A stretch of DNA of 62,430 nucleotides from Candidatus Thalassospirochaeta sargassi (GTDB lineage: Bacteria > Spirochaetota > Spirochaetia > UBA9216): positions 1-62,430 of the forward strand of contig JAQQAL010000015.1 of NCBI GenBank assembly GCA_028532855.1, in the 5' to 3' direction. The notes under the pieces were generated by a model that did no database searches, was not told the DNA's origin, and saw only the letters and a list, made by a program, of their open reading frames with translations. This document shows positions 6,101-45,057 of this stretch, piece by piece. Both the position numbers and the translations under genes were made by a program. Each line of letters opens with the position of its first letter. Positions within the stretch are counted from its first letter, which is position 1.

Positions 6101-9100
6101 GATTTATCAGGGCATCAGTATCTGGCGCTCTACCTTGAGGGCGGGCATAATCTGGCTGCTGATTCCGGGGATTTATATCCCTATATTTATTCTGCCGAGT
6201 ACGCCGGGGCAAAGCAGCGACAGAAAATTGCATCACTGCTGGTCGAATCGGAAGAATGTGTTCCGGTTCTTGCGGAGCATAATTATAATATCCGAAAAAA
6301 GAATCTGTTTTGTGAGCTGGAACAACTGGGACTCCTGAATAGTGATACCGGAGAATTAATATCTCCTGAAGAAATCTGGAGTTTGAAAGTTTTTAATTCA
6401 CTCACTGATGTAAGTGAATGGTTTTATGAATTGGATGATGTCCTCCTGTCACGAGAGCTGCCGTTCTGGTTCAGTGAAATTCTGGCTGATTATATAGACA
6501 GTCTGAAGGATTATGCGGCTGTAAGGGCTGCTTCAATTTTTCCTGAGGCGCAGACATTCGAAACATCTGAAATTAACTTTGAGATAGAGGGCTGGATAGA
6601 TGAAATAACCAATGCAGGTAAGCTTCTGGAATATTTTGAAAGTGATCTGGATGACATTGAAAAACTAATCCTTATAGTAGAATCAGAGCTTATGGATGAA
6701 GCTGTAAAAAATGAGGCCCGTTTTAGATTAGTAGAAACTGCGGCATTTGACCTGGGGGCTGCAGCCGCAGCCATGGAATCCTTCGAGGGGGAATCTGCAC
6801 AATGGAACAGTCTTTTTTCAAAAATGGAATTAACGGAAATTTGGGAATATAAAGATGAAATTATAGCAAAGGCCTCGGACATATATGCTATGGCAGCTGC
6901 ACTTGAATCATCTGATGCGACGGATTGGTCTACGGTCCCGGCAGGCTGGATACCCTATTATGAGGCTGCTAAATGGAATGCCTCAGATTTCAATATTGAA
7001 AACGCTGAGGAACTTTCTGATTCGGAGTACCGCTCTGCAGAGATTCATCTGTTGAAAAAGGAGGTTTTGAGCGGTGATTACACTGCGGAAAGCCTTGAGG
7101 ATAGGCTGGCTTTAGTGCTTGATATAACTGAGTCCGAAATTGCTGAAGTAACGGCGCTTCAGCGTGTTATTGATACGGTAAAAAAGTATAAACCCCGTCT
7201 TCATGGTGAATTCGATGATTATCTGGTTTCTGAGAACTTTGAACCGGAGCTGAGCAGCAGGATAAGGGCTGTTTATCTCCGATTTCATGGCAGTCCTTAT
7301 TTTCAATTTGATGAAGCTGTGTTTATGCCGGCTGCAGACAGCACTGATTTAACTGCGGCTATGATAATTGAGCAGCTGGCTTTCAATAAAACCAGGGTCT
7401 TGAACCCTACGGCTGCCTGTCCGTCAGCTGCGTTAAGTATGAATGATGTTTTTTTCAGAAACATTTCAGATTATATTCTCTCATCAGTCTATGGCCCAGA
7501 TGTTTCAAGCTGTGTGTCTCTGGCAAAAGCCTATGCCGGACGGGATCTGGCATTGCGGTTGAGTGAATATAATGCTTCTTTAGATACTGTTGATGCCGAT
7601 AACTGGCGCAGTTTTATAAATACTGATTATATAGGCTCTGATGATATTTACCTTTATTCTGCAGATGAAAATGATTCAGTAAATTTTATTCTTGATGCCA
7701 GTGAAACCTGTATTGCACTTACTGCCTATTTGGCAGAAGGTTTAACAGCATGGAATCCCGAACAGTTTAATATTGAAGCAATATCGGAAGATTACACCTA
7801 TTCTGGTAATGATGATGCTTATATTGAGTATGCACAGGCTTGGGATACGTATTCAACTTTGAGGTCCAACATCAGTACAATAAAAAACGATCTTGGAATT
7901 CTTGGAAACCGCAGAGAAAAACTACTGAGACTGCAGGCGGCGGATGATGAATCGGTTAATTCTGAATTGAAGCCCCTTGCTGATCTCATTGATGAGTTTG
8001 AGTCTGAGTATGATAATGCACTTGAGAAGCGGATATTGTTAATTGAGGGGGCAGGGGGCTTCAGAGAGACTGAGGCAGCTTATTCTGCTGCCTATGATTC
8101 AGCTCGTGTGCTGCTTAATGAGTTTGAGTCGGTTGAGCATGATTACTCTATGGCTGCATCAATCTATAATTTTGCATCTTCAGGTTATTTATCCAGAATT
8201 GCTGATGAGGTTTCACCGGAATCCCGTTTGGCATATGTAGAAGATAAGCTTAACAGATCAACCGCTGCCTATGATGCTCTTTATAACCTCGGAAACAGTG
8301 ATACATTGTTGTCTTCGGCCTATTCGGAGAATATCCAGTATAAAGAATATTTCGATCGTTATATAGAATATTTCAGAGACAACATTCTGTTCAATAGAAT
8401 AAATCAGGTGATGAACGAAGCAGTTTCTTTACAGGTATCGGTTGTCTCGCAGGCTGAAAGCAGCTGGCAGCAGGCATTAAATGAAAGCTATTGCAATGTT
8501 GTTTACCGTGATGAAGAAGGTGCATTATGCGTTCCTGAAGGCCTTGAGCATTTAACACTCACTGAAAAACCAAACGGTAGTTGGGATATCGGCTGGTCTG
8601 ATAATGCTGATATTGAGAAAATAGAACGCTATTTCAATTCAGTTTTTGAGACAGATTTGGTGAAATGGCTTGAATCACTGAATGCAATAAATAATCTCCA
8701 GAATCTAACCGAGATAGTTACAATCTGGGGAATGGCTGGAAAGTGGGAGGAATACCAGGCCCTGTCTGCTGACGAAAAAGATGAGATCAGCGATTCATTC
8801 TGGAGCAACTATCTTAACCGAAACAATGAAACTGATCTGGATAGAGAGGGGGCAAAAGAGCTGCTTATTACAGAATGGAAAGAGGCATTCAATAAAATTG
8901 AAGGTTATTCTGATGAAGAGTTGTGGATGTACAACTTCTACAAGATCTTATCTAAGGGAAGTCTTATGCAGATAGATACCTCGATTGGAGGATTACGGAC
9001 CTCCGAGAATCTGGATGTCGTTTCTGAGGAAGAGAGTGTTTTGCTCGCAAATCAGTATCTTATCGAGGGGTGTAAAGAGGATGCCAGGATACTGATACTT

Positions 9101-12100
9101 TCTTCGATTCCAATGTTCACAATAGCTGCCGGATATTATGCGATGGCAATAGGTTTTCTGTCTCTTCCCCTAGGCTGGATTGCAGCCGCACTAGCTTTTT
9201 CTATTGCAGCGGGTTTTACCCTTGGTGCAGAATCAAAACTGGGAGAGAGCAATATGAGGCTTGAAGCAGCTAAGCAGATTCAGAATAACGTAATATCATC
9301 GTGTGAGAATAATATTGATAATTTTATGCTTGATTTTTACAGGGATTCTGAGTCTATTCTCAATAAAAAGAACGCCTGGGAGCGTGAAACTGCCAAACTT
9401 CAACTAATGCTCGGCGGGGCTGAAGGCAGCAGTGAATTTACCGCTGAAGAGCAAAAAACTGCTTTGGAAAATACAATAGTTGATGCCTTTATACAGAAAG
9501 GAGAAAATCTGCATGACCTGTTAGTTCAGCTGGATATAGTAGAACCCGATGCGGAAACCGGTGAAGATTCACTGGCCATTTCTTCATTTTTAGAAAAATA
9601 CTATTTCCCTGCTGAACTTACGAGCATTGAATACATAACTGAATTTGAATCGATTTCAAAATTAAGATGCAATGAAGCAGAGAGTGAATTGAATGATTTC
9701 ACGGCAGCTTTATCAGCAGTACAGAGGCAATCTGTTGAAACTGATTATTCTGATGCATATCAGGATTTTATTCAGGGCGATTCCGATTATTCTGAATTCC
9801 TTTCAAGTGTTGATGAGACCTGGGGGAAGAATATGTTCTCGGAGCGGGAACATGTCCTTCGGCTTTATGAAACTAGAAATCAATATTCGGAAACACTTAC
9901 AGACTATGCTCTTTTTAATTCGGATGCTACTGAGGGTTTTCTAAATCAGCAGAGAGAACTTCTGGCAGTTGGAGACAGCAGTATTAATAATCTAAGGATA
10001 CAGAATAACTGTAATGTGAGGCTTGCGGAGCTGCAAATGCTTAAATCAGATTTTGTAGAACGATATCAAATCTGGGAAAATCAAATGAAGGCAATTGCTG
10101 CACGAAGCGATCTCGAATGGCAGAATGCCGAAAGCAGGTTTAATCAGCGTCGGGAACAATGGGCTGTTTCTATCAGCAACAGCTTTGAAACACAGCAGCA
10201 GATGTGGGCGGAAAAGTATGCTGATTTTTTGAATGATAAAGAAAATTGGCTGAAGTCGGTTGCACTTCAAAGTACTGATTATGGAAATATCAGGGTTCTT
10301 GAAGATTTCGGTACTATGACTGAAGCAGCTGTATCAGCTGCAGGAAACAGTATATTGACCGGGCGGCTTATATCCGGAATAACCGGGACTGAAGATATCC
10401 TCTCTAATCTTTTTGACGGTGAATTGCTGGATGAAATGTTGAGGGGCGCAGCTTTGAATAATGCTGAAATATCAAGCCCCGCCTCATTGGTCTTTACTTC
10501 GGCTGGTTTATCCCGTTTTAATACTTCTGAAAGCATAAGCAGAATTGAGGAGTTCCAGATAGAACGAAATAACCAGTTTGAAGGACATATTGCTCTTTTA
10601 AAATACGAAAATCTGCTGGAACAGGTTCATTCGGCTGAGAAAAATTTTTCGGCAATCATTTCAGATGCCAACGAATCAATGGAAAACAGTATTAGTAAGA
10701 CTATGCGAGAAGACGGCTATGTTTTTAACGGAACGAAATATGAGAAGGAGATTGTAGCCGGAGCAACTTTTAACAGCTATATATATCAGACGGCATTTGT
10801 GAGCCGGTATAATTTTTACGAGCCTGATAATTTAAATTTTTCTAGAGAGCTTGAGGCCGCTTCAGGAGAGTTAGCCGGAATTGATATTGAGGGTTTAGAA
10901 GGACTGGCTGATAAGGCTATTGATAATATCCGGAATAAACTGGAAATGATTTTCGGTGTTGACAGCTCAGCTGATTCAAAGATTCTTTCTGCTTTAGGTT
11001 TAAACACTACCGAAATTGAAGGTGAATATCAGCAGACTGAAATTGCCGACGACATGGAAAAGACTGGTCCTATAGAACAGGTTGTAGAGTTTATCGAAAT
11101 GATAGCTGAAAATATCAGCGGGAAGCTGTCTGAACCGGAACTCCCTGAGACAAGAATAATTGAACTTGAACCGGGAGCCTTTGGGTTGCATATAGGGTTT
11201 GCCCCTGAGTTCTCGGAAAATGTTGATCCGGGTTTGGACTGGGATGCTCCGGGTCAAATGAAATATAGAGGAAGCGGAGAGCTCGGCCGTATAATGGGCG
11301 AATTCATTTTTAATAAAATTCGTGAAGGTGTCGGCTGGGGGGAAGTGAATATGCCTCATTATTATAAACGTCTATGGGATGACAGTGAGAGTTTTATTCA
11401 GGCTCCTACTGTCGCAGAGCTAACCGGATTGGGTATAAACATTATGACTCTGGGAGCAGGTGGCATAGCGAGTTTCTGGGGTGCGATGGTTGTAGGTCTT
11501 GCGGATAATGTTGCGATAACAGCATTTGATATTTCAAACGGCAACAGCAGTGCGGGAGAAGGTCTGTTTAATCTTGGCAAACAGATTGTAATAGAATCAT
11601 TTGCAACCCTGGGTTCCGATTATATTTCCTCAATTGATACAAGTGATTTTTCACTTGGGAAGCTGATAGGATTAAACCTTGGACAGCAGGCATATAACAA
11701 TAGTACATATGCTGCATTTAATGCTCTGAATTATGATGATGAATTCGGCTTTGATTACTCACTTAGTGTATTGGATTATGGATTATTCGGTGCCTCCGCT
11801 GTTTCAGGATATGCAGGTACCGCTGCTTCAATGGGCGTCAGCAGTCTGATTTCAGGCATTCTTCCTCCTCTTGAAGCTGCATATTATGGGAGCCTTGCAG
11901 ATCTTGGCGGCGTAGCAGCGGAACAGGCTGCAGAATATGCGGTCCATGCCGGATATCAATTGGGTCGGGACGGTTTTTCAGATATCTCCGGGAGCCTTAG
12001 TACAGCATTTGATAATATGGACATGAGTATTAATATGCTTGATATTGGTTCGGTTCTCGATGCCGCCAGGCTGATTTCGGTTGTGGGAACCGATAATTAT

Positions 12101-13795
12101 GACGACAGTTATCTTGCCGGCTTGAATACTGCTGCTGAGCAGCTTGGTGGAACAGGATTATTTGCAATTAATATCAGCAGCAGCGGATTGAGCGGTGAAA
12201 TAACCGATGAAGGAATAATGCTTGGAAAATACCTCTATGAACTTGGAAAGGCTGCAGCAGCTGATATTGCAATAAAGAATTACAGTGAAGTCGAAAACAG
12301 TGAAAAGCTCCTCGAACTTGGTTTTGTGATGGGCGATCAAGTCCTTGAGGATACAGTCTGGCGGATTTTATCCGGTGCCGATGAGCTCTCTTTTGATGCT
12401 GTCGAGGGAGTAGACGCCGAAACTCTCAACATAGATGGAGTCAGAGAGATACATCTGAACAGTGAATACGAAACAGAAGATGAGCTGTTAAAAGCGGCTC
12501 TTGTTTTACAGCATGAGGCTCATCGTGACGGTGATGACTATATGAACGACAGCGAAACCCTTCGGGCTGTTTCCGCCCATACCGAAATGGCTCTTGGTCT
12601 GGCCTCGGCATTTGGAATAGATTTTATTGCTGGGGATGAAAACCTAACCTCCGATATTGCATACTATATGGCTTCACTGAGGGGGGGGGACACGACAATT
12701 TTCAGGCAGTACGTTGACTCGGTTTACAGCTCGGGAGCGGATTACTGGAAGGTTTTACACGACGGTAATATTATGTTTGACGGAAGTAAAAATCTTTATG
12801 ATGAAAACGGTCGTATCCTTGCTGAATATACAGGATCCGGCGGTTTTACCGCTTCACTGGCTGATATGCTTGATATTAGTTTTGATGAAGCCGATTTGAT
12901 GATGAGACAGGCGGGATGGTCGTGGGACAACGGTACATTCAAGGTTGACGGAATGACGGTAGACGTTAAGAACAGTCTTGATCACCTCCTTGAAACCGAT
13001 AGTAATTTTAAAGCCCGATATGATATTCAGCTTAATCTAGTTGATAAGGTCTGGTCTGATTTCGGAGGAGATATGAAAGCTGCTCTTGCTTTTGCCGAGG
13101 AGGAAATAACCCTCGCCAGGGCAAGCGGGACAATGACCGATGAACTGCTTGAAAAGTACAACGTTCTCAGCAGTATGAATAATTTTGCCCAGACCTGGAA
13201 CGAAACTATGTATGAACAAGGTTTATGGGATCAGCAGCGCGCCCTGGATTATGAAGAGAATAATATTGAAGCTGAGTTTGAACAGATCTACAACGATTTC
13301 CAGGAAGGTAAAATCGCTGACAACTACATGTACACCGCCATCCCCGGTGTAATAAACCCTCTTGGAGGATTTTCATATATTACAACTAAAGATATTTATC
13401 CAGAAACTGAAAAGATGATAGAAATGAATCTGGCTAATAAACCCCATGGACAGTCTCGTGGCGGAAGTGCTGTTGATCTTGGTACAGACCAGAAATACTT
13501 AAAAATATTCACTACACAAATTGAAAATATTCTTTTCGGTAGTTTTATGAATTATAGTCAAGGAGGCGGTTACACTTTTTCATCCTATTCAGATAACTTC
13601 CATAAACTCTCCATGCATATGCTTGAAAATAATTATGCATCCATGATTCTTGAACAGCTGCAGCTCTCTGCGGAGGATACTGAGCTGTTTAGAACGACAT
13701 TACCTGCCGGTTTTACTTATGGATCTACAGGGAATTCCGGTGAGCTTACAACCGGTATTCATCTTCACTATGAGTTAATTCCTTTTGAATATTAG
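3167..13795 (+). CDS. Giant secreted protein of 3542 residues, TIGR04388-like, with degenerate M23-type C terminus
   Basis: An N-terminal signal peptide (cleavage around residue 25, near NSYTQ) marks it for export. Long acidic, Trp-punctuated helical stretches follow, for example about 130-420 and 2300-2365. A hydrophobic hairpin lies at about 1973-2020 and Gly/Ala-rich hydrophobic segments at about 2745-2945. A QHEAHRDG motif is at 3115-3122. The last 120 residues resemble a LytM/M23 peptidase: SAVDLG with D3437, a HKLSMHML segment, and G-IHLHYE with H3532 and H3534. The canonical first zinc His four residues before the Asp is absent, so activity is doubtful. Length, signal peptide and architecture recall the Leptospira 'longest protein' family. 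Role unknown; surface or periplasmic. AAGGA precedes the ATG. Confidence 0.8.
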   Translation: MNKPRNLCAVLLGVSFIFLNTNSYTQNTGLQDFTYLFDESQMNYYFDRADEQTDRRQWMDYVDFGLESTAAAWEKELLLLPELDYDPENLPVVTEKYFKELIADRFAQWLSRSFFNSIHPAELGRLSLGIEELNNLYLYNDPDSDSGYKTSIDYYDLYEPDNEGIYVLAEKGDKTLWAEGAREKMGILMDSWSENMITASAELRSTIDESLIDSFDRIWQEDFKEHRDKYNQQLYQLYCLEQSRFSNLRLNDQASLQFQSDSGAAEAVTGELLVRTVERLDAELEALKSGLDDRIKDADLQSSFSSENWDLAFRNLLEQGLNAWDSAEKEFLFERIEWEQTALIEAADADRIWVEAFSELRSERTAWFNSFKTILEDGRELWTEEGGELDAVISQAISEIEQNAVHESSSLQERLDNNIEMLLHSIEMMHAARSSWEYWMDCVDGGSKESFDGGSISWDANSMTSATDDLIAAVSGDQEMAADEAHYWVETFSLYQSYALDMQQKLAEIYGVVVFDSSTFETAFDGSDLKPALLDTAVLNDEEVWEAVFLDSLQVETLKARACMQYWEEQIETAEAVYAYSIDTTSLKEGADDTLQKLEQSRLLYEETFNAYADGVEELNSLGRSLDNLEEQLSAVMLEINDCRKRLNGAREQYTGLISDLYSDNPQYLADEYKENYLLLIEYTENSSAYENYLQAALNYGISVNTASLSEHLLKLLNGDPASTAGLLYNPDSFSLRSLEERMNSVSTAGFTINANQLQDGFFCLSTENSITSFTDYLENSLFLSSLDYRYSKLVEYFGLYNDPETDSGSEILWEMQRIIKSIQQTEKAEYELRLAEIRLYTSESFSQWAMQYFETDVYNEIPAEASPSFINNIPGEIDEDIRVYDSLLQLYAESDAEDFVIYDWDEFSPDSPDDLNIEQAYQKIWDHIKETEGTDVDTAIKVSEIAASLKALKAWLLEHGPLDEASNLIEAALLQPDDLSGHQYLALYLEGGHNLAADSGDLYPYIYSAEYAGAKQRQKIASLLVESEECVPVLAEHNYNIRKKNLFCELEQLGLLNSDTGELISPEEIWSLKVFNSLTDVSEWFYELDDVLLSRELPFWFSEILADYIDSLKDYAAVRAASIFPEAQTFETSEINFEIEGWIDEITNAGKLLEYFESDLDDIEKLILIVESELMDEAVKNEARFRLVETAAFDLGAAAAAMESFEGESAQWNSLFSKMELTEIWEYKDEIIAKASDIYAMAAALESSDATDWSTVPAGWIPYYEAAKWNASDFNIENAEELSDSEYRSAEIHLLKKEVLSGDYTAESLEDRLALVLDITESEIAEVTALQRVIDTVKKYKPRLHGEFDDYLVSENFEPELSSRIRAVYLRFHGSPYFQFDEAVFMPAADSTDLTAAMIIEQLAFNKTRVLNPTAACPSAALSMNDVFFRNISDYILSSVYGPDVSSCVSLAKAYAGRDLALRLSEYNASLDTVDADNWRSFINTDYIGSDDIYLYSADENDSVNFILDASETCIALTAYLAEGLTAWNPEQFNIEAISEDYTYSGNDDAYIEYAQAWDTYSTLRSNISTIKNDLGILGNRREKLLRLQAADDESVNSELKPLADLIDEFESEYDNALEKRILLIEGAGGFRETEAAYSAAYDSARVLLNEFESVEHDYSMAASIYNFASSGYLSRIADEVSPESRLAYVEDKLNRSTAAYDALYNLGNSDTLLSSAYSENIQYKEYFDRYIEYFRDNILFNRINQVMNEAVSLQVSVVSQAESSWQQALNESYCNVVYRDEEGALCVPEGLEHLTLTEKPNGSWDIGWSDNADIEKIERYFNSVFETDLVKWLESLNAINNLQNLTEIVTIWGMAGKWEEYQALSADEKDEISDSFWSNYLNRNNETDLDREGAKELLITEWKEAFNKIEGYSDEELWMYNFYKILSKGSLMQIDTSIGGLRTSENLDVVSEEESVLLANQYLIEGCKEDARILILSSIPMFTIAAGYYAMAIGFLSLPLGWIAAALAFSIAAGFTLGAESKLGESNMRLEAAKQIQNNVISSCENNIDNFMLDFYRDSESILNKKNAWERETAKLQLMLGGAEGSSEFTAEEQKTALENTIVDAFIQKGENLHDLLVQLDIVEPDAETGEDSLAISSFLEKYYFPAELTSIEYITEFESISKLRCNEAESELNDFTAALSAVQRQSVETDYSDAYQDFIQGDSDYSEFLSSVDETWGKNMFSEREHVLRLYETRNQYSETLTDYALFNSDATEGFLNQQRELLAVGDSSINNLRIQNNCNVRLAELQMLKSDFVERYQIWENQMKAIAARSDLEWQNAESRFNQRREQWAVSISNSFETQQQMWAEKYADFLNDKENWLKSVALQSTDYGNIRVLEDFGTMTEAAVSAAGNSILTGRLISGITGTEDILSNLFDGELLDEMLRGAALNNAEISSPASLVFTSAGLSRFNTSESISRIEEFQIERNNQFEGHIALLKYENLLEQVHSAEKNFSAIISDANESMENSISKTMREDGYVFNGTKYEKEIVAGATFNSYIYQTAFVSRYNFYEPDNLNFSRELEAASGELAGIDIEGLEGLADKAIDNIRNKLEMIFGVDSSADSKILSALGLNTTEIEGEYQQTEIADDMEKTGPIEQVVEFIEMIAENISGKLSEPELPETRIIELEPGAFGLHIGFAPEFSENVDPGLDWDAPGQMKYRGSGELGRIMGEFIFNKIREGVGWGEVNMPHYYKRLWDDSESFIQAPTVAELTGLGINIMTLGAGGIASFWGAMVVGLADNVAITAFDISNGNSSAGEGLFNLGKQIVIESFATLGSDYISSIDTSDFSLGKLIGLNLGQQAYNNSTYAAFNALNYDDEFGFDYSLSVLDYGLFGASAVSGYAGTAASMGVSSLISGILPPLEAAYYGSLADLGGVAAEQAAEYAVHAGYQLGRDGFSDISGSLSTAFDNMDMSINMLDIGSVLDAARLISVVGTDNYDDSYLAGLNTAAEQLGGTGLFAINISSSGLSGEITDEGIMLGKYLYELGKAAAADIAIKNYSEVENSEKLLELGFVMGDQVLEDTVWRILSGADELSFDAVEGVDAETLNIDGVREIHLNSEYETEDELLKAALVLQHEAHRDGDDYMNDSETLRAVSAHTEMALGLASAFGIDFIAGDENLTSDIAYYMASLRGGDTTIFRQYVDSVYSSGADYWKVLHDGNIMFDGSKNLYDENGRILAEYTGSGGFTASLADMLDISFDEADLMMRQAGWSWDNGTFKVDGMTVDVKNSLDHLLETDSNFKARYDIQLNLVDKVWSDFGGDMKAALAFAEEEITLARASGTMTDELLEKYNVLSSMNNFAQTWNETMYEQGLWDQQRALDYEENNIEAEFEQIYNDFQEGKIADNYMYTAIPGVINPLGGFSYITTKDIYPETEKMIEMNLANKPHGQSRGGSAVDLGTDQKYLKIFTTQIENILFGSFMNYSQGGGYTFSSYSDNFHKLSMHMLENNYASMILEQLQLSAEDTELFRTTLPAGFTYGSTGNSGELTTGIHLHYELIPFEY

Positions 13796-32537: not shown

Positions 32538-32561
32538 ATATCAGTTTTGATCTGAAAAGAA

Positions 32562-32648
32562 AAACCCCGCCGGAATGTTGCTGTGGCGGGGTGGGGAGAA
32601 AATGAAAAAACTTCTGCAATCTCAGCACTTGTCCTTACTGTATTGCTG
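32562..32648 (-). ncRNA. Candidate small RNA between ugd and asd
   Basis: The minus strand shows a promoter-like block (triple TTTACA repeat, -10 TATCTT at 32659-32654). About 85 nt follow: a hairpin with a perfect TCAGCA/TGCTGA stem, a U-rich single-stranded stretch ending UUCUCCCC, which could pair with Shine-Dalgarno sequences, and a strong intrinsic terminator (ACCCCGCC/GGCGGGGT stem followed by a T-tract). This is the usual layout of a trans-acting bacterial sRNA. No sensible ORF occupies it. The prediction is inference. Confidence 0.5.
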
Positions 32649-32653
32649 ATTAG

Positions 32654-32717
32654 AAGATAATGAATTTAGTTTTTTGTTTGGTTATCAAACTGTAAACAGA
32701 TTGTAAACTGTGTAAAA
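32654..32717 (-). promoter_or_regulatory. Triple TTTACA repeat and -10 of the small-RNA candidate
   Basis: Read on the minus strand: TTTACA-N3-TTTACA-N5-TTTACA, then exactly 31 bp, then TATCTT. No good -35 is present, as expected for an activator-dependent promoter. The same repeat, spacing and distance occur at the efflux operon (42503-42527), so the OmpR-type regulator encoded at 44314 is the natural candidate activator. Confidence 0.5.
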
Positions 32718-32725
32718 TGGCAGGG

Positions 32726-32756
32726 AAAAAGCCGCCCAAACAGAGGTTCAAGCGGC
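32726..32756 (-). terminator. Intrinsic terminator of asd
   Basis: On the minus strand GCCGC (32756-32752) pairs with GCGGC (32735-32731), followed directly by five T. It lies 27 bases after the asd stop codon. The 16-nt loop and 5-bp stem make it moderate in strength. Confidence 0.55.
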
Positions 32757-36452: not shown

Positions 36453-37748
36453 TTAGTTACTATATTCTGCAAGAGCCCGCAGCGCGTTGTAACGTTCAGC
36501 TGCTGCAGAAAACAGTCCGTTTCTGGATGTTTCATACTGCAGCGCTGTTTCCTCAAGTTCCGCTTCGGAATATTCACCGAGTTCGAACAGGAACTCAGCT
36601 TCATCCAGAAGTTCTTCAGCCTGTTCAAGTTCAACTTCAGCAAGCTCATAATTTATAGCTGCGGATTCAGCTGTTGTAAGCGCCTGGTTCAGGTTAAGCT
36701 GTTCGGAATAGACCGTCTGCACAGCCTGACTCAGGCTTATTTCAAGTTCAGTCGAAAGCAATTCGCGTTCCTCGTAATTCCAATCGTCTAAAGCAAGGGT
36801 CAGTGATACGCCAGCTGAAAAATCAGGCTGGAGGTCGTCAGCTGAAATGTCCATGCTTCCACTGAACTCTAAATCAGGCTGAAACGCCCAGGTATTGTCC
36901 AGTTGAAGTTGAAGCATCTCTGCTGCCGCCTCGGCACTCAGGATATTGTAGCTTCCGGAAATTGAAAGCTTCGTATCATCAATCTCTGCATCAATTTTCT
37001 CAATTAAATTAAACAGATCAGCCTCGACAGGTGCTTCTATATTGAAGTCTGCGGGATCAATATTCAGTGTTGTATACAAACCTGTCTCGGCTGTCTGTAG
37101 TCTATTCAATGCGTTATTTGCAGCAGTTCTTGCCTCAGACCAATCGCTGAAGGCTTCACGAACATCGTCGAGTACGGATTCTCCTGCCTCAAAGCGGATT
37201 TTTTCATCCTCATAGAGTATCTGGTTGACCTCAGCCGTTTTTTGTAGGATATCATAATCAGCGGCCGCGTATACCCAGTCCAGGTAGCTTTCAACTGCGT
37301 TATCGGAAACCTCACGGGCTGTATTTTCAGCCGCAGCAAGCTTTAATGTGTAATTCAGCCTGCTCTCAGCCGCTGTAATGGTATGGTTGAACGGCGATAT
37401 ATTTACAGTGAAGGATCCTTCGATACCTTCATCATCGTCCTCATCAACTGAAGCATCAAAGCTGAGCTGATCAAAAACCGGCAGTGTGGCCGATGCGCCC
37501 CAGCCGTACTCTGCGCTGGATCCGTCGTATGACCCGGAAAGTGTGAGTGATGAATCGTCAAGTTTAATCCAGCCTTCTAATGCGTTTCCGGCTTCCATCA
37601 CCTCAAGTACAGCGGTTTTATAATCAAGGTTGTTCAGCAATGCTGTTTCCTCAACCTGTTCAATCGTATTTATTGTATCGGCCGAGGCTTCTGAGGCGAA
37701 GATTGCCGCAGAAAACATGACCGCTGATATTACTTTATATTTTTTCAT
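36453..37748 (-). CDS. TolC-like outer-membrane efflux protein
   Basis: 431 residues. A signal peptide ends near ASEASA|DTIN. Two long helical coiled-coil regions, about 110-200 and 300-420, alternate with beta-rich segments such as 'SSLTLSGSYDGSS' and 'FSAGVSLTLAL'. This is the OEP/TolC duplication plan. It should provide the outer-membrane exit duct for the MacAB-like pump in the same operon. The start at 37748 (MKKYKV) has an AAGGA site; an upstream in-frame ATG inside the permease gene is less likely. It is strongly acidic and is the last gene of the operon. Confidence 0.82.
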   Translation of the reverse strand: MKKYKVISAVMFSAAIFASEASADTINTIEQVEETALLNNLDYKTAVLEVMEAGNALEGWIKLDDSSLTLSGSYDGSSAEYGWGASATLPVFDQLSFDASVDEDDDEGIEGSFTVNISPFNHTITAAESRLNYTLKLAAAENTAREVSDNAVESYLDWVYAAADYDILQKTAEVNQILYEDEKIRFEAGESVLDDVREAFSDWSEARTAANNALNRLQTAETGLYTTLNIDPADFNIEAPVEADLFNLIEKIDAEIDDTKLSISGSYNILSAEAAAEMLQLQLDNTWAFQPDLEFSGSMDISADDLQPDFSAGVSLTLALDDWNYEERELLSTELEISLSQAVQTVYSEQLNLNQALTTAESAAINYELAEVELEQAEELLDEAEFLFELGEYSEAELEETALQYETSRNGLFSAAAERYNALRALAEYSN

Positions 37749-37758
37749 ATCACTGTCC

Positions 37759-39066
37759 TTATACTTCCCTGATGGTTTCGGCAATATTTCCTTTGACAGC
37801 TGAAAGAGCAGGCAGAAGCCCCAGAACGCCGCCGAAACCGAGAGCCATGAAGACAGCCGTGAACAGAGCCGACAGCTTTATACCCGAATCGGCCTGAAAC
37901 TGTCCCGATACCTCGCCAAGCAGCGGCGAAATGCTTCCCATAACAGGGGTTGCCAGAATTAGCGCAAGGATCACACCTATAACAGCGCCAACAAGGCTGA
38001 GTGTGAGTGACCAGCTCCAGAACTCCCGTACAACAAGCTGCTGTGATGCACCGAGTGCCCTTTCAAGAGCAATCTCCCGTCTTCTGCTCAGCGACTCAAC
38101 AACCATTATGCTGAATATGCCCAGCGAGCTTGTAAGCAGCAGTACAATGCCCAGAATATTTACCGACACGGTAAACATGTCGACTGTGCTGCGCAGTTCC
38201 TGCATGTAGCTTGATTCTCCGTTCACAGAACCTTCCCAAACGAGAATGTCGATATCGTCCCCGTAGTTTGCGGTGAGCACCTGGTTTACAGATGATCTAG
38301 TCTTGGCGGCAGATGCGCCTTCACTTCGTACAACGAAAAGACCTGACATAAAGTCCAGCATCCTCTGAACGTTTGAACCCCCTGTTACCATCGAGGTGTA
38401 GGGGAAAATAAGATCTCCGATGCCGTATGCACGTCGGGTGACCTCAGCAGGTGTTTCAAACACGCCTGCAACGTTATAGCTGATGATTACGTTCTGCTCC
38501 CTTTGTCCCGGGCCCCTCTGCATCATCTCACCCGGAGGCTGAATATAGTTGCCTATCGCCTCTTCGGCAGAACCGTAGAGGGCTACAGCCATTTCTTCAG
38601 TTATCCAGACCTTCTTCTGCCCCATATCAATGTCTTCAGCAGACATCGGTGCGCCGGCAATAATATCCAGTCCAAAAACATCGAAATACTGTGAATCACT
38701 TCCGACTGCTGAGCGCAGGTCATAGCTTGTACCATTTGTTGTAAACTGGTTGAACGGTATTCTGAAGATGACGGCTGCGTTTTTAATTGTATCTACATCG
38801 CTTAATACGAAATCGAGGGCATTGCTGTCCCATTCGGACGGACGATTTTGTTCAACAGTGCCGTCAGAATCCCATTCGCCGTTGGCGACATACATGATCA
38901 CTCCATTTTCATCAAGTTGTCCGGATACCTCTTCTTCGAGAATGCTGCTTGCAGAAAATGATAGAATCAGGATTCCGGTACCTAGGGCTACGGCCGAAAG
39001 CGTAAGAATTATTTTCAGGGGCGATTTAGCCCAGTGCCTTAAAAGCATAGTTATAAATTTTTTCAC
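37759..39066 (-). CDS. MacB-type ABC permease, second subunit
   Basis: 435 residues. One N-terminal membrane helix (about 18-40) is followed by a large extracytoplasmic MacB_PCD domain and three C-terminal FtsX-type helices, the first near 'VNILGIVLLLTSSLGIFSIMVV'. It also has the 'SRRREIALERALGAS' cytoplasmic loop. It lacks an ATPase domain, which is a separate gene here. It is paired with the similar 453-residue permease just upstream (four-base overlap), so the transporter is probably a heterodimer. Confidence 0.9.
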   Translation of the reverse strand: MKKFITMLLRHWAKSPLKIILTLSAVALGTGILILSFSASSILEEEVSGQLDENGVIMYVANGEWDSDGTVEQNRPSEWDSNALDFVLSDVDTIKNAAVIFRIPFNQFTTNGTSYDLRSAVGSDSQYFDVFGLDIIAGAPMSAEDIDMGQKKVWITEEMAVALYGSAEEAIGNYIQPPGEMMQRGPGQREQNVIISYNVAGVFETPAEVTRRAYGIGDLIFPYTSMVTGGSNVQRMLDFMSGLFVVRSEGASAAKTRSSVNQVLTANYGDDIDILVWEGSVNGESSYMQELRSTVDMFTVSVNILGIVLLLTSSLGIFSIMVVESLSRRREIALERALGASQQLVVREFWSWSLTLSLVGAVIGVILALILATPVMGSISPLLGEVSGQFQADSGIKLSALFTAVFMALGFGGVLGLLPALSAVKGNIAETIREV

Positions 39067-40427
39067 GATGCACTCCTCATTGCCTGTGCAGGGTCAATTT
39101 TCATGAACTGGCGGGACGGAATCAGCCCGAACAGCGTGGTCAATCCGCCTGCAAGAACCGCTCCAATTGTGATGTAGAGCCAGGATCCCGCTTCAATCCC
39201 TGCAGCGGTTTCCATGTAGCCGCTTAAAGGTATAGCAAGCAACGCCCCTGCAATACCGCCTGATACTGCAAGTACCAGAGCCTCGGTCAGAAACAGTTTT
39301 CTGATGCTGTTCTTTGATGCCCCGAGGGCCATTAGTATACCTACATTTTTTTTCATTCTAAGAACACGGCTCATCATAATATTTGAAACATTTACAAGCG
39401 CAATGAAGAAACCTGCGGCTGAAAGAAACAGGATAAGCAGGCTGATGCCCGTATTTCTTGAAACAAGCTGTTCAGCTTCCGCTCTGGGGTTTGATATGAC
39501 AACCTGATCCTCCCCCAACTGTGATTCGAACCAATCGCTCAAAAGTACTGCTGTAGAATCGAGATCTTCCGGATCCTCGACTGCAAAGCGCAGCTGTGTA
39601 TCCATGAACCTCCTTCTGAATCCGCTGAAGCCTCCGGTCTCATCCTTATAAGGAGAGAAATATTCCTGGTCAAAGCCCTCCGACACCGGATTCATGATTC
39701 CAATTATTGTTTGGTAGCCTTCCCGGGAGAGAAGTTTTTTGCCCAGAAGTTCGTCGGCTTCCATCGATTCACCGGCAAGAAGGGCAGCAAGTTCAGAACC
39801 TAGCACAATAACATTTTCAGTGCCGGTAATATCCGCCTCTGAAATCAGGCTTCCGGATGATGCTGTTATGTCCCATGAGTTAAAAAACTGAGAGGTAACC
39901 TCATAGCCGCTTATCTCGTCGAATTCGGCGATTATGATGCTTGAATCTGCTTCCATCTCCGCTAATTCTTCTTCCGAAATTTGTATACCCTGTCTGTCGT
40001 CCGCCCGCGGCTCTCCGCCTCCTGCATTATCACCCCCGGGTGGGGACATATCTTCCGGCGGCCGCATGTTACCGGTATCTGCGGTAATCAGGTGCAGTCT
40101 GGAGTTATTCTGTACATATGCCCATTCGACGCCGGGTGCAAGATTAGCAGCTTCAAGGTCGGCTGCTGTCAATACAGCGTTTTCCTGGACAAGTTTTTCT
40201 TCAACAGGGTTTTCCATCTCGCTAGCTTCGCTTCGGGTGCTTATAACGAGTTCCCTGTATTCGGGAGAGCTCATAATCTGGTTTGAAAACTCCATGGTAT
40301 TCATTATCAGCGATAATCCTGCTGCAAATGCTCCGATTCCCAGGGCAACTGCAATTATCAGCAGTCCTGATTCGAGGGTACGATCGCGGAACCGGCGCAA
40401 AATGATTTTTACCGGTTCTTTAAACAT
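39063..40427 (-). CDS. MacB-type ABC permease, first subunit
   Basis: 453 residues with the MacB/FtsX plan: TM1 at about 20-42, a large periplasmic domain, and three C-terminal helices with the 'RMKKNVGILMALGASKNSIRKLFL' loop. The start at 40427 (MFKEPVKIIL) follows TGGAGG and overlaps the ATPase stop by eight bases. The periplasmic domain holds a Pro/Gly-rich low-complexity insertion near residues 115-140. No substrate can be inferred. Confidence 0.88.
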   Translation of the reverse strand: MFKEPVKIILRRFRDRTLESGLLIIAVALGIGAFAAGLSLIMNTMEFSNQIMSSPEYRELVISTRSEASEMENPVEEKLVQENAVLTAADLEAANLAPGVEWAYVQNNSRLHLITADTGNMRPPEDMSPPGGDNAGGGEPRADDRQGIQISEEELAEMEADSSIIIAEFDEISGYEVTSQFFNSWDITASSGSLISEADITGTENVIVLGSELAALLAGESMEADELLGKKLLSREGYQTIIGIMNPVSEGFDQEYFSPYKDETGGFSGFRRRFMDTQLRFAVEDPEDLDSTAVLLSDWFESQLGEDQVVISNPRAEAEQLVSRNTGISLLILFLSAAGFFIALVNVSNIMMSRVLRMKKNVGILMALGASKNSIRKLFLTEALVLAVSGGIAGALLAIPLSGYMETAAGIEAGSWLYITIGAVLAGGLTTLFGLIPSRQFMKIDPAQAMRSAS

Positions 40428-41112
40428 TCTGAGCCTCCAGATTCGGCGAGCCGGGGATAAGCATTCCGTCGCGCAGTTCAATCACATAGCCCGCTCGCCT
40501 GCCCTGTGCAGGGTTGTGTGTAACCATAACAACGGTAACTCCCCGCTTGTTTAATGATTCAAGGATCTCCATTATTTCCTCGCCCTTGTCGGACGGAAGG
40601 TTTCCAGTGGGCTCATCAGCAAGGATCAGATCAGGATCATTGGAAAGCGAACGGGCTATTGCAACCCTCTGCTGTTCACCGCCGGAAAGCATGGTGGGAA
40701 GGTGTGTCATTCTGTGGCCGAGGCCAACTTCCTGAAGCAGATCCACTGCCTTGTCCTTTCTTGTTTTATAGGGAATGCCCGCGTAGCTCATTGGAAGCAT
40801 CACATTCTCGATTGCTGACAGCTCAGGAAAGAGGTTGAAGCTCTGAAATATAAACCCGAAATGCTTGTTTCTGATTCTTGCCTGTTCCTTATCCGGAAGG
40901 GCGGTGATATCATAGTCCTCAAGAAAGTATTTACCCCCGGTCGCTGAATCAAGGATGCCCAGAATATGCATCATTGTAGATTTTCCTGAACCCGAAGGCC
41001 CCATTATTGCGGCATAGTCACCACGGTTTATTTCCAGACTTACATCTTTAAGGGCGTCAACTGTTGTTCCCCCAAGATCGTACTGTTTGCTTATATTTTC
41101 CAGTCTTATCAT
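40420..41112 (-). CDS. MacB/LolD-type ABC ATPase
   Basis: 230 residues. The Walker A is GPSGSGKST (about 39-47), the Q-loop is IFQSFNLFPELSA, the signature is LSGGEQQRVAIARSL, the Walker B is LILADEPTGNL, and the switch His is in MVTHNP. This subgroup powers mechanotransmission transporters of the MacB/LolCDE type. It is preceded by the membrane-fusion gene and followed by the two permeases with overlaps, so all are one operon. Confidence 0.95.
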   Translation of the reverse strand: MIRLENISKQYDLGGTTVDALKDVSLEINRGDYAAIMGPSGSGKSTMMHILGILDSATGGKYFLEDYDITALPDKEQARIRNKHFGFIFQSFNLFPELSAIENVMLPMSYAGIPYKTRKDKAVDLLQEVGLGHRMTHLPTMLSGGEQQRVAIARSLSNDPDLILADEPTGNLPSDKGEEIMEILESLNKRGVTVVMVTHNPAQGRRAGYVIELRDGMLIPGSPNLEAQNV

Positions 41113-41131
41113 CTTATTTCTCCTTAATTCA

Positions 41132-42427
41132 TTATTTGAGTACTACGAGCTCTTCATCTATGAAGCTCTGGTAGCTGCTTGTAATTATTTTATCGCCGGC
41201 CTTAAGCCCGCTGAGGATTTCAACTGTAGTCCCTTCTATGGAACCGTAGGTTACCTGTGTTTTATATGCCTTACCGTCTTCCACCTTATAGACCCATTTC
41301 TGACTGCCTGTTGTAAGGTAAGCACCGCGCGGAATCATAAGCACGTTTTCTTCTACCCCGAGGGTGATGCTGGCAACTGCTGAGGCCCCCGGGGTTAGTG
41401 TTTCTTCAGTTATTGGTTTTGCGCGGACTGTAATCATTGCCGACAGTCCATCCGAATCCATGCTTGCTATTTTCCCGATTTTTACAATCTCTGCCTTCAT
41501 TGTGTCCGAACCGATAGTTACTGTCATTTCACCGCCGATTTCAAGCAGATCAGCATACTGCTCGTATACATCAAAGTCGATGTATGATTGAGCCCGGTCA
41601 GCTACAATGAATAGCTCGTCGGCTTCTTCTATTACGCTTCCCTCAATAGCGAGATCCTCATTAATGCTCAGCACCTCTCCGGCGATGGGGCTCTTGATTC
41701 GTGAATCTTCAATATCTTCTTTTGTTATTTCAAGATTTGTTTCAATCTGGCTTATTGAAGCCTCTTGCTTCCGAATATCGATATTCATCATTACCTTTGC
41801 TTCTTCCAGGCTGATTTCATAATCTTCCTTCTCTTCCAGAAGCTCTTCGAGAACATCGACGGCGTCTTCATAATCCGTTTCGCGTGAACTTTTAAGTTCC
41901 GCAAGTTCTTTATATGCTGCTACATCTTCTTCTGCGTCTTTTATATCCTCCGCAAGTCTCTCTATGCTCAGATTAAGTGTCTTTATCTGATATTCGTAAC
42001 CGGTAATGATAGATTCAAGCTCAATTTCCGCCTGTTTCAGGCTGACTGTCAGGGTGTCAAGTTCATCTTCAAGATCCGGAACCTCCAGAGTTGCAAGAAT
42101 ATCTTCAGTTGTTATTATTGCGCCTTCTTCCGTCAGCAGTTCATCGGTGTAACCGTCTTCAGGGCTGACGATTGTCACCTGAGCAGGGAGTACAACTGTT
42201 CCACTGGCTTCAGTTGTTGATATAAGCTCGCCGGCATATACCTTTGCCGTTTCATATGATTTAATGCTTACTGTTTCAGCAGATTCCTGAAATTTGAAAA
42301 ATAAAAACACTCCGGCTCCAATTGCTGCAATTACAGCTAAAGTTATTATTCTGCCGAATCGCTTTTTTTTTGATGAGGAAGGTCCGACATTTTCAATATT
42401 AACTATCCTTTCCTGTTCCATGCTCAT
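41132..42427 (-). CDS. MacA-like periplasmic adaptor (membrane fusion protein)
   Basis: 431 residues. One N-terminal membrane anchor lies at about 27-46. A lipoyl/barrel-sandwich half follows, then a long acidic coiled-coil hairpin (about 115-235), the second lipoyl half with 'IKSPIAGEVLSINEDLAIEGS', a beta-barrel, and a C-terminal membrane-proximal domain. It would link the inner-membrane ABC pump to the TolC-like duct. It is the first gene of the five-gene efflux operon. GGAGAGG lies just before the ATG. The promoter carries triple repeats for a probable OmpR-type regulator. Confidence 0.92.
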   Translation of the reverse strand: MSMEQERIVNIENVGPSSSKKKRFGRIITLAVIAAIGAGVFLFFKFQESAETVSIKSYETAKVYAGELISTTEASGTVVLPAQVTIVSPEDGYTDELLTEEGAIITTEDILATLEVPDLEDELDTLTVSLKQAEIELESIITGYEYQIKTLNLSIERLAEDIKDAEEDVAAYKELAELKSSRETDYEDAVDVLEELLEEKEDYEISLEEAKVMMNIDIRKQEASISQIETNLEITKEDIEDSRIKSPIAGEVLSINEDLAIEGSVIEEADELFIVADRAQSYIDFDVYEQYADLLEIGGEMTVTIGSDTMKAEIVKIGKIASMDSDGLSAMITVRAKPITEETLTPGASAVASITLGVEENVLMIPRGAYLTTGSQKWVYKVEDGKAYKTQVTYGSIEGTTVEILSGLKAGDKIITSSYQSFIDEELVVLK

Positions 42428-42502
42428 TTTACCTCTCCGGAAATTTATTGCGTTTTATAGTAATGAATATACTCCTCAGCGAAGCGGTCATGGTTAAGGG
42501 AA

Positions 42503-42527
42503 TGTAAGCGCTGTGTAAACTATGTAA
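42503..42527. promoter_or_regulatory. Triple direct repeat between efflux operon and its two-component genes
   Basis: TGTAA starts at 42503, 42514 and 42523. Read on the minus strand this is TTTACA-N3-TTTACA-N5-CTTACA, followed after exactly 31 bp by a -10-like TATATT upstream of the MacA gene. Tandem repeats at roughly one helical turn are typical of OmpR-family binding. The identical layout at 32691-32716 supports a functional site. Confidence 0.6.
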
Positions 42528-42590
42528 AAAGAAATACTTGAAGCAGCTAAAATTATAGCGGAAAATGATTCAAACGGTTAATATATCTGC

Positions 42591-44321
42591 ATGGAAAGAG
42601 ATAAAATGCTGAACGGAGCATTTAAAGGTATAGTCGTAATTGTAACCTCGCTGGTTGTTTGCATTGCCATTATGATCGTGTACCAAACATTCGAAAAAAC
42701 TACTGAAGCTAATATCTTCAGGTTAACGGATGAAATAGAGGCCTCTGTAAGCAGGACGGTAACGACTGAGTATAGAAGATATTTAATTCTGCGGGATATA
42801 TGCAGTTCAGCTGCAGCTGATGATTCGGGAAGATCTATTGAACAAATTATTCAGGATAATTCAGTAATTTTCGGGTCTGACGGAGATATGTCGAACATGG
42901 TAAACGCAATCGGTTATTATCATGAAGAAAGGCCTGAAGCTGCACGAGAATATGATATAATAAGAGGTGAATGGCGAGAGCTGCCGGGAGTATTTGAGAA
43001 AAAGAAGGATGCAAGGTACCCTGATTTTGAATATACCGGATCAGATACTGAAAAAGGTAATTTTTATATGGTCCTTGGAATAAAGGACACCGGTATGGCA
43101 ATGTTTTTTGAACTCGACAGGGATGGTTTTATAGATAATTACGTAAAAGAACTTGTTGAATCCGTGAATACTGATTTTAAAATTGAGTGGTTTAGAGGAA
43201 TAGATGATGAAACGGCAGAGGTTCTCAAACAGCAATACAGGAGTGAGCCTTCAAGATACCGTTTCAGACCGCTTTCCATCCTTTTTAGATATGAACAGAA
43301 TAGGAAACCCCTTATTATTGAGATACCGAGTCTGTTTGAACTCAGGCGAACAATTTTAAGAGAAGATGACATGAGGGTCCCTCCGCAAAAACCGTTTCTG
43401 GTTCGCGCAGAGACCTATATAAAGATGATACATGAAGACGGTTCCTATTATCACGAAATAGAGCACAGAGCAGCCATCAATTTTCTGGAAACAGTTCTCA
43501 TATTTATTATAATCGGGATAACATTTGTACTGCTTCTTTTCCAGTTGCGTAGAACAAGTATTATGAGAGACAAGGAAAAGGAATTTGTTGCCTCAGTCAC
43601 ACACGAACTTCGAACCCCACTGACTGTAATCAGATCAGCAGCGGATAATCTTTCAACCGGAATTGTGCCTCCTGAAAAGCTTAAGGTTTACGGTGGCCTT
43701 ATCTCCGAACAATCCGACAGACTAGCAAATATGATTGAAGAGATTCTTCTGTATTCAAAATTTGAAGATAAACGTCGAAGTAATGAAAAAACTGTGGAAG
43801 TCGATCTGCCCACGCTCCTCTTGGGTATAAAACCGGGGCTGACTGCCTTATCGGAAGCATCAGGATGTAAATTGAACTGGGGAGAAGCCGGCTTACCGGA
43901 GAGAGTTGATACCCATCCGGAAATTATTACGCTGGCAATTAATAATCTTGTCACAAATGCTGTTAATCACGCCTATTCGGGGCATGATGGAGCCGCAAAA
44001 CGTGAAATCAGGGTCAAAATTAAATTGCTGATACCTGATAAGCTTGAAATCACAATAGAAGACGACGGCAGAGGTATTGACAGTCATGAACAGAAAAAGA
44101 TATTTGATCCGTTTTATCGGGATAATATAAGTCGAAGCAGGCAGGAGAAGGGCAGCGGTCTCGGACTGTTTATTACCCAGAGAAAAGCGGTTATTGCCGG
44201 CGGCAGGCTTTCTATAGAAAGTCCCTATCGAAGAATAGATGGTAGCAAGCCATCCGGTTGCCGCTTTAAATTAACCCTGCCTTGTAAAGTTATAAACAAT
44301 ATGGAGAAGGCCGATGGCTGA
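42591..44321 (+). CDS. Sensor histidine kinase
   Basis: 576 residues. TM1 is at about 12-32, a periplasmic sensor domain of about 265 residues is not recognised, and TM2 is at about 298-318. A dimerisation domain follows with the phospho-accepting H338 in 'VASVTHELRTPLTV'. The ATP-binding domain has 'NNLVTNAVNHA', 'EDDGRGID' and 'GSGLGLFITQ'. It overlaps the response regulator by eight bases and is divergent from the efflux operon, so it probably senses a compound the pump exports or an envelope stress. No clear Shine-Dalgarno precedes the first ATG; TAATAT lies six bases upstream. Confidence 0.94.
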   Translation: MERDKMLNGAFKGIVVIVTSLVVCIAIMIVYQTFEKTTEANIFRLTDEIEASVSRTVTTEYRRYLILRDICSSAAADDSGRSIEQIIQDNSVIFGSDGDMSNMVNAIGYYHEERPEAAREYDIIRGEWRELPGVFEKKKDARYPDFEYTGSDTEKGNFYMVLGIKDTGMAMFFELDRDGFIDNYVKELVESVNTDFKIEWFRGIDDETAEVLKQQYRSEPSRYRFRPLSILFRYEQNRKPLIIEIPSLFELRRTILREDDMRVPPQKPFLVRAETYIKMIHEDGSYYHEIEHRAAINFLETVLIFIIIGITFVLLLFQLRRTSIMRDKEKEFVASVTHELRTPLTVIRSAADNLSTGIVPPEKLKVYGGLISEQSDRLANMIEEILLYSKFEDKRRSNEKTVEVDLPTLLLGIKPGLTALSEASGCKLNWGEAGLPERVDTHPEIITLAINNLVTNAVNHAYSGHDGAAKREIRVKIKLLIPDKLEITIEDDGRGIDSHEQKKIFDPFYRDNISRSRQEKGSGLGLFITQRKAVIAGGRLSIESPYRRIDGSKPSGCRFKLTLPCKVINNMEKADG

Positions 44322-45057
44322 AGAGAAAAAGAAAATACTTATAGTTGAAGATGAGCCTGGTGTTCAGATTACCCTTGAAGACAGACTTAACTCTGAGGGA
44401 TACAATGTAACCGTACGCGGAGACGGAATAGAGGGTGAGAAGGAAATACTGACCGGCAATCATGATCTGGTTCTGCTTGATGTCATGATGCCCGGAAAGG
44501 ATGGTTTTTCAGTTTGCAGAGATGTGCGCAAGGCCGGAGTTGAAACTCCGATTCTGATGCTAACTGCACGAGATACAAATATAGATACTGTTACAGGGCT
44601 GCGCTTCGGTGCGGATGACTATCTTCCTAAGCCCTTCGACATGCAGGTACTGCTTGCACGCATTGAAGCACTTCTGCGCAGGGCCGCCTCCAAACAGCAG
44701 ACTGCCGGCGGGGCCGCAGCTGATTCACCTGCGGGGCAGCAGCCGGAGAAGGTCGTTTTCGGACGTTTCATCCTTGACCGCTCCCGCGGCCTGCTTGAAC
44801 AGAAGCTCGATGACGGCAGCGTGGAGGCTGTTGAACTCAATGCCCAGGAATATAAGCTTCTTGAATACCTTGCCCAGCACAGCGGCCGGATAATAAGCCG
44901 TAATGCAATCCTGGATGATGTCTGGGGCTATGAAAGCGAGATAACTACCCGTACTGTTGATGTGCATATTGCCAAACTCAGGCAGCGGCTCGGCGAATCC
45001 GAGATGCCGCGGCACATCCTTACATACCGCGGGCGGGGTTATAAGTTCGAGCTTTAA
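44314..45057 (+). CDS. OmpR-family response regulator
   Basis: 247 residues. The receiver domain has acidic E12/D13, phospho-acceptor D56 in 'LVLLDVMMPG', T in LTARD and K in PKPFD. An unusually long Ala/Gln-rich linker spans about 128-150. A winged-helix DNA-binding domain closes with 'TRTVDVHIAKLRQRLG' and 'TYRGRGYKFEL'. It pairs with the overlapping kinase. The triple TGTAA repeats upstream of the kinase and pump genes are its likely binding site. Confidence 0.95.
   Translation: MAEEKKKILIVEDEPGVQITLEDRLNSEGYNVTVRGDGIEGEKEILTGNHDLVLLDVMMPGKDGFSVCRDVRKAGVETPILMLTARDTNIDTVTGLRFGADDYLPKPFDMQVLLARIEALLRRAASKQQTAGGAAADSPAGQQPEKVVFGRFILDRSRGLLEQKLDDGSVEAVELNAQEYKLLEYLAQHSGRIISRNAILDDVWGYESEITTRTVDVHIAKLRQRLGESEMPRHILTYRGRGYKFEL

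Follow-up and report, generated by a model that had tools for sequence, protein, structure and literature searches.

Two paralogous putative small RNAs under an efflux-pump operator in a spirochaete, with a porin-like gene as their predicted target

MicF, the antisense RNA of ompF in E. coli, ties drug efflux and stress to porin loss. OmrA and OmrB, a paralogous RNA pair under one OmpR-family regulator, repress outer-membrane proteins. MicF is under OmpR-family two-component control and base-pairs with its porin mRNA at the ribosome-binding site and the early codons, and its link to porins is documented (PMC1489923, PMC5745476). The Cpx envelope response is read from a direct-repeat consensus, GTAAA-N4-8-GTAAA, bound by CpxR (PMC9603713), and it too has an RNA arm (PMC4817254).

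The locus analysed here lies in a window of 62,430 nt, by which we mean the whole stretch under study of DNA from Candidatus Thalassospirochaeta sargassi, a free-living spirochaete; its plus strand also contains a very long open frame of 3542 aa (3167-13795). A predicted small RNA in this window, s1, resembles MicF in its proposed OmpR-family two-component control, and both s1 and its paralogue, s2, resemble MicF in their predicted pairing. They differ from it in regulator and operator geometry, in being two paralogues on separate contigs, and in a longer pairing that lies largely in signal-peptide codons. No RNA unit described here matched Rfam, and neither s1 nor s2 met the MicF covariance model. 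Hfq was found in none of 21 genomes by a search that gave matches in 5 of 14 control genomes; Borrelia also lacks Hfq (PMC11607428). Like OmrA and OmrB, s1 and s2 would be sister RNAs under a single OmpR-family regulator, but OmrA/B are adjacent, Hfq-bound and use a short 5' seed, whereas s1 and s2 are unlinked with predicted pairing of more than 40 nt. The s1 operator, read on the opposite strand, is similar to the CpxR repeat and shares its envelope theme; it differs in having three to four repeats at a fixed 9/11/11 spacing, and while CpxQ is cut from the 3' end of cpxP, s1 has its own promoter. A limited search of the open-access literature found no earlier description of the operator or of the RNAs reported here.

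The first-pass annotation had described a minus-strand triple repeat between ugd and asd, a hexamer 31 bp beyond it, and a like arrangement at an efflux operon, and all three are present. The repeat at s1 reads TTTACA-CAG-TTTACA-ATCTG-TTTACA (32716-32691), and its -10 box, TATCTT, stands 31 bp past the third repeat (32659-32654, minus strand). At the efflux operon the repeat is TTTACA-TAG-TTTACA-CAGCG-CTTACA (42528-42503), followed after 31 bp by TATATT. To these we add TTAACC, a conserved element 11 bp after the third repeat and the fourth of the operator. By pattern search, the s1 operator then extends over 32680-32716 (TTTACA-N3-TTTACA-N5-TTTACA with TAACC 11 bp on) and that of the efflux operon over 42492-42528 (TTTACA-N3-TTTACA-N5-CTTACA-N5-TTAACC), both on the minus strand. 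The resemblance had been judged unlikely to be chance; the operator pattern with 3 mismatches or fewer has an expected count of 0.11 in the window, against 2 exact sites, and 0 of 100 shuffles contained two. The original observation was thus correct as described. A promoter scan did not recognise the -10/-35 pair of s1, which is what one would expect if the promoter depends on an activator and lacks a good -35.

A genome scan for the triple repeat, the check suggested with that observation, revealed, with at most 1 mismatch allowed, 7 sites in the genome to which the window belongs (3.84 Mb, 53 contigs) and 0 with the reversed pattern as a control. At 7 of 7 sites a TANNNT box lies exactly 31 bp after the third repeat (TAATAT, TATCTT, TATATT, TAAATT, TAGATT, TAATAT and TATAAT). 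The targets are an outer-membrane factor (OEP domain), s1, the efflux operon, a gene without a Pfam match that is outer-membrane-factor-like in appearance, s2, a ferredoxin/flavoprotein operon, and a second OmpR-family regulator. An annotated lipoprotein (L006) was rejected as a target; the site faces the ferredoxin/flavoprotein operon. Across the class, the extended pattern (TTTACA-N3-TTTACA-N5-TTTACA-N6-TAACC) occurs 63 times in 32 of 198 genomes, with 0 occurrences of the control, and every named record with an exact match is a spirochaete (Spirochaetales, Spirochaetaceae, Spirochaetia, Pleomorphochaeta). In a set of 68 distinct sites drawn from this and related genomes, TANNNT was found at offset 31 in 58, and each remaining offset between 18 and 45 had it in 7 or fewer. 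The operator with its phase and conservation is a computed result, and these features bear out the proposal that pump and RNA have an operator in common, one that is phase-locked, class-conserved and placed beside homologues of the same kinase. As a side observation, at three loci (L066 and L075 in G006, L068 in G001) an operator at locus position 1501 on the minus strand precedes a 95-145 nt leader; the three leaders are alike, each with a GC-rich hairpin, and the next gene in G006 is the pump adaptor. This leader is possibly an attenuator or the source of a leader-derived RNA.

Downstream of the s1 operator, the RNA body claimed in the first-pass annotation is present as a minus-strand unit of about 88 nt (32560-32647, ends predicted), recognised from sequence, folding and its paralogue. 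It consists of a 5' hairpin with the conserved loop GGACAAG (32616-32647), a linker UUUUUUCAU-UUU-CUCCCC (32592-32611), and a Rho-independent terminator, CCCCGCC..GGCGGGG-TTTTT (32560-32591). Because s1 lies between convergent genes, it cannot be a leader. The second copy, s2, was found by computation on another contig of the genome (C12), just downstream of an operator at 9359-9384 on the minus strand, and its layout is hairpin, GGACAAGUGCUGAGAU, UUUUUUCAU, CUCCUCCCC and terminator. Though diverged, this copy agrees with s1 in hairpin shape, loop and terminator and in a linker that is U-rich and C-rich. The 5' fold of both is (((((..(((((........)))))..))))), with stem letters changed from GCAAU/AUUGC and CAGUA/UGCUG in s1 to AGCAU/AUGCU and CGGCA/UGCUG in s2, and GGACAAGUGCUGAGAU is invariant between them. 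This operator-driven paralogue with conserved structure supports the claimed RNA. The gene after the s2 terminator has its own promoter-like sequence, TTGCAC-17-TAGAAT (by eye). By sequence alone, the unit fulfils the small-RNA criterion of an own promoter, a non-coding body and a Rho-independent terminator. No third copy was found in 41 genomes searched with s2 as query; since s1 and s2 turned up in no other genome of this set, the case for conservation rests on two paralogues. The plus strands of s1 (window 32593-32652) and s2 (C12, 9254-9322) contain a Shine-Dalgarno site and ATG AAA AAA; on the s2 opposite strand this opens a signal-peptide-like 20-aa frame, a hint of origin by inverted duplication of a gene start.

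In a blastn search of the whole genome, the only reverse-complement match to s1 with E below 0.01, besides the two RNA loci, was at 148511-148534 of contig C11 (E 0.005), inside the start of a single-copy gene of 426 aa. Its product begins MKKLALVLAVLLVVGGAAFA... and ends in ISF, and it has a signal peptide and a C-terminal Phe, both barrel-like traits. It has no Pfam match, and its best NCBIfam indication, msp_porin, falls short of the cut-off (E 3.4e-8, 32.9 bits vs 200), so that its predicted identity as a spirochaetal Msp-like outer-membrane porin has only weak support. Both RNAs pair best with this porin-like gene among 1186 start regions (s1 -58.3, s2 -56.4 kcal/mol), with runners-up at -46.7 and -48.7 kcal/mol, respectively. 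The best energy over all genes among 24 dinucleotide shuffles per RNA was -45.3 (s1) and -50.5 (s2), and no shuffle chose the porin. When intramolecular folding was allowed, co-folding ranked the gene 1 for s1 and 2 for s2. This complementarity and rank are computed, on a sample of 1.32 Mb (34% of the genome) whose C11 part was known beforehand to hold the best match, supplemented by blastn and pattern searches of the whole genome, and duplex energies ignore kinetics and the cell's RNA-binding proteins.

The predicted pairing is laid out in two parts: AGCA-AUACAGUAAGGACAAGUGCUGA of the s1 hairpin faces codons 3-13, and UCUCCC faces the GGAGG site, with the same arrangement in s2. The hairpin is the reverse complement of signal-peptide codons, and the linker that of a Shine-Dalgarno site plus AUG-AAA-AAA; the C-rich stretch that had been called anti-Shine-Dalgarno-like does face such a site, at the start of the porin-like gene, to which the entire 5' part of each RNA is nearly complementary. 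Pairing would cover the Shine-Dalgarno site and codons 3-13, and the letters unchanged between s1 and s2 are the pairing letters. A further small-RNA criterion is also satisfied: the match to the translation start of an mRNA encoded elsewhere is imperfect yet better than chance. A point against the proposed circuit is that in the close relatives G001-G004 the operator is kept at the pump, and the porin and s1/s2 are both absent. An Msp-like gene of G006 (34% identity) gives pairing of only -36 and -33 kcal/mol with s1 and s2, as expected if the RNA-porin pair is specific to this species.

The porin-like gene is not the only signal-peptide gene among the predicted partners: such genes make up 54 (s1) and 50 (s2) of the top 100, where shuffles gave on average 18 and 16. 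This strong enrichment for both RNAs, together with the recurrence of UUUUUUCAU followed by a C-rich stretch in a unit of genome G035, gives some weight to a real, operator-driven RNA with a general role, in which the UUUUUUCAU and CUCC stretch sequesters Shine-Dalgarno/AUG-AAA-AAA starts of many secreted proteins, or the RNA has other targets, and the porin match is merely the strongest of many. We regard such a role as unlikely, though worth keeping in mind, since the porin is an outlier for both RNAs and since it is the hairpin pairing with porin codons, and not the linker, that stays unchanged from s1 to s2.

The efflux operon on the minus strand (36453-42427) encodes a membrane-fusion protein, an ABC ATPase, two MacB/FtsX-type permeases and an outer-membrane factor. 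Divergent from it, in an arrangement conserved across the class, is a histidine kinase gene (P0003, 42591-44321, plus strand), followed by an OmpR/PhoB-family response regulator (44314-45057, plus strand), which is the likely operator reader. In loci searched by tblastn with the window's kinase, adaptor and regulator as queries, most operators lie between a membrane-fusion gene of the P0005 family (27-74% identity) and a divergent P0003-family kinase, and homologues of kinase P0003 and/or adaptor P0005 stand beside most operators. In genome G067, an RNA-like unit lies near a 58%-identical homologue of the 44314 regulator (L183). The test for an OmpR/PhoB-family regulon, a winged-helix regulator encoded beside direct-repeat sites, is met. 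The regulator is neither CpxR nor OmpR by curated cut-offs, and it fails the CpxR orthologue test at 150 bits against the NCBIfam CpxR cut-off of 341. On the conserved neighbourhood of the operator, the 42591-45057 pair is its probable reader; this assignment is likely, with no binding data behind it.

A second OmpR-family regulator, on contig C49 (L007), could instead be the reader or share the role. It belongs to the same OmpR/PhoB family and has an operator upstream of its own gene, but class-wide the operator is found beside P0003 kinase homologues, usually at the pump, and L007-type regulators rarely adjoin it. That the C49 regulator is the main reader, with the 44314 regulator just a neighbour, seems to us quite improbable; being itself operator-bearing, it may add a second layer to control by the 44314 regulator. 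The stretch of C49 concerned (L199:3859-5800) holds a second two-component system, its regulator gene with the operator and then a signal-peptide gene, MKKSLIVLAVLLLVGGFVFAEAGVSG..., whose start resembles the porin start.

Whether there is an RNA gene at all was also considered. The unit lies behind asd on the same strand, and asd has a terminator of its own just upstream of the operator (32722-32756, minus strand), which would suit a second hairpin serving as a back-up terminator, with repeats that are chance or serve another purpose. Against this, the phase-locked promoter is common to six other sites in the genome, the paralogous unit on C12 is away from asd, and whole-RNA folding is more stable than expected (z-scores of -3.3 for s1 and -3.5 for s2), so we give this reading very little credence. 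Least tenable is a tiny protein gene, read as AGGA-CAA-GUG on the minus strand or as a signal-peptide-like GGGGAG-AAA-ATG-AAA-AAA on the plus strand, where s2 offers MKKVLSISALVPAVMLNIIY behind GGAGG: no reading frame is common to the two RNAs, the plus-strand frame is thrown off by a length difference of 1 nt, the minus-strand frame of s2 meets a stop after 4 codons, and the hairpin shape is kept while neither reading survives.

Among about 70 operator sites we found ten operator-driven RNA-like units: s1, s2, one each in G035, G091, G067, G081 and BB7, and a trio in G101, G120 and G129. The trio is mutually homologous with a CCCCUCC-type loop; it includes one clear two-sided stem change by eye, from GATAACC/GGTTATC to GATAATC/GATTATC, in a helix unused by the automatic consensus. 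These three loci (L180, L176 and L175, respectively) carry the anti-Shine-Dalgarno loop CUACCCCCUCCUAUUUGGUGUAG. The unit in G035 (L059/L204; contig C20, operator 371528-371553, minus strand) is non-coding, about 135 nt long, with CUUUUUUCAUACUCC and a terminator. Neither the G035 RNA, searched by blastn, nor the G101 RNA had a convincing antisense partner. The G081 RNA has CCGGTAAA(A)CTTTATTTAGA in common with its BB7 relative and is unrelated in sequence to s1 and s2. In G081 the shared stretch is an exact complement, over 18 nt, of the leader of a porin-like gene; the product of that gene, MKKALMLAAAIAVVAAPVFAQ..., matches a spirochaetal barrel family only very weakly. Judged from these letters, G081 offers one further predicted case, and only one, in which the logic recurs independently. 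A second match in G081 (17/18, L313) was set aside, its unit being unclear and without an operator.

We consider it fairly probable that s1 is an RNA of the MicF kind, repressing a porin independently of Hfq under the control of a spirochaetal envelope/efflux regulator, with its transcription, binding and repressive effect inferred. The kinase (42591) would phosphorylate the OmpR-family regulator (44314), which would then bind the TTTACA repeats and activate the promoter whose -10 box lies 31 bp downstream; which regulator binds, and whether it activates or represses, are inferences. Activation would raise the MacAB-TolC-type pump and s1 together, along with s2, two outer-membrane-factor-like genes, the ferredoxin operon and the second regulator gene. 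Pairing with the porin-like mRNA would be seeded by the GGACAAG loop at codons 3-13 (signal-peptide residues ALVLAVLL), and the C-rich linker would pair with the Shine-Dalgarno site. Ribosome entry would be blocked, and the porin repressed without Hfq. The same antisense design may, more weakly, disfavour other signal-peptide genes with similar starts. Harmful compounds would be pumped out while the porin entry route is closed.

Beyond this species we offer only a tentative and rather doubtful generalisation: that free-living spirochaetes repeatedly put unrelated small RNAs under a single phase-locked efflux/envelope operator, and that each such RNA acts without Hfq on an outer-membrane porin start. 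Some, such as s1 and s2, perhaps arose by inverted duplication of the target gene's start, which is possible because their reverse strand still reads a Shine-Dalgarno site and then a signal peptide. Small-RNA action without Hfq is poorly understood in bacteria, and regulation in free-living spirochaetes has been little explored. The operator described here connects an efflux pump with RNAs for which a specific porin target is predicted, making a directly testable circuit, and its motif is rigid enough to serve as a probe for the regulon, and for further RNAs, in whichever genome of the class is examined.
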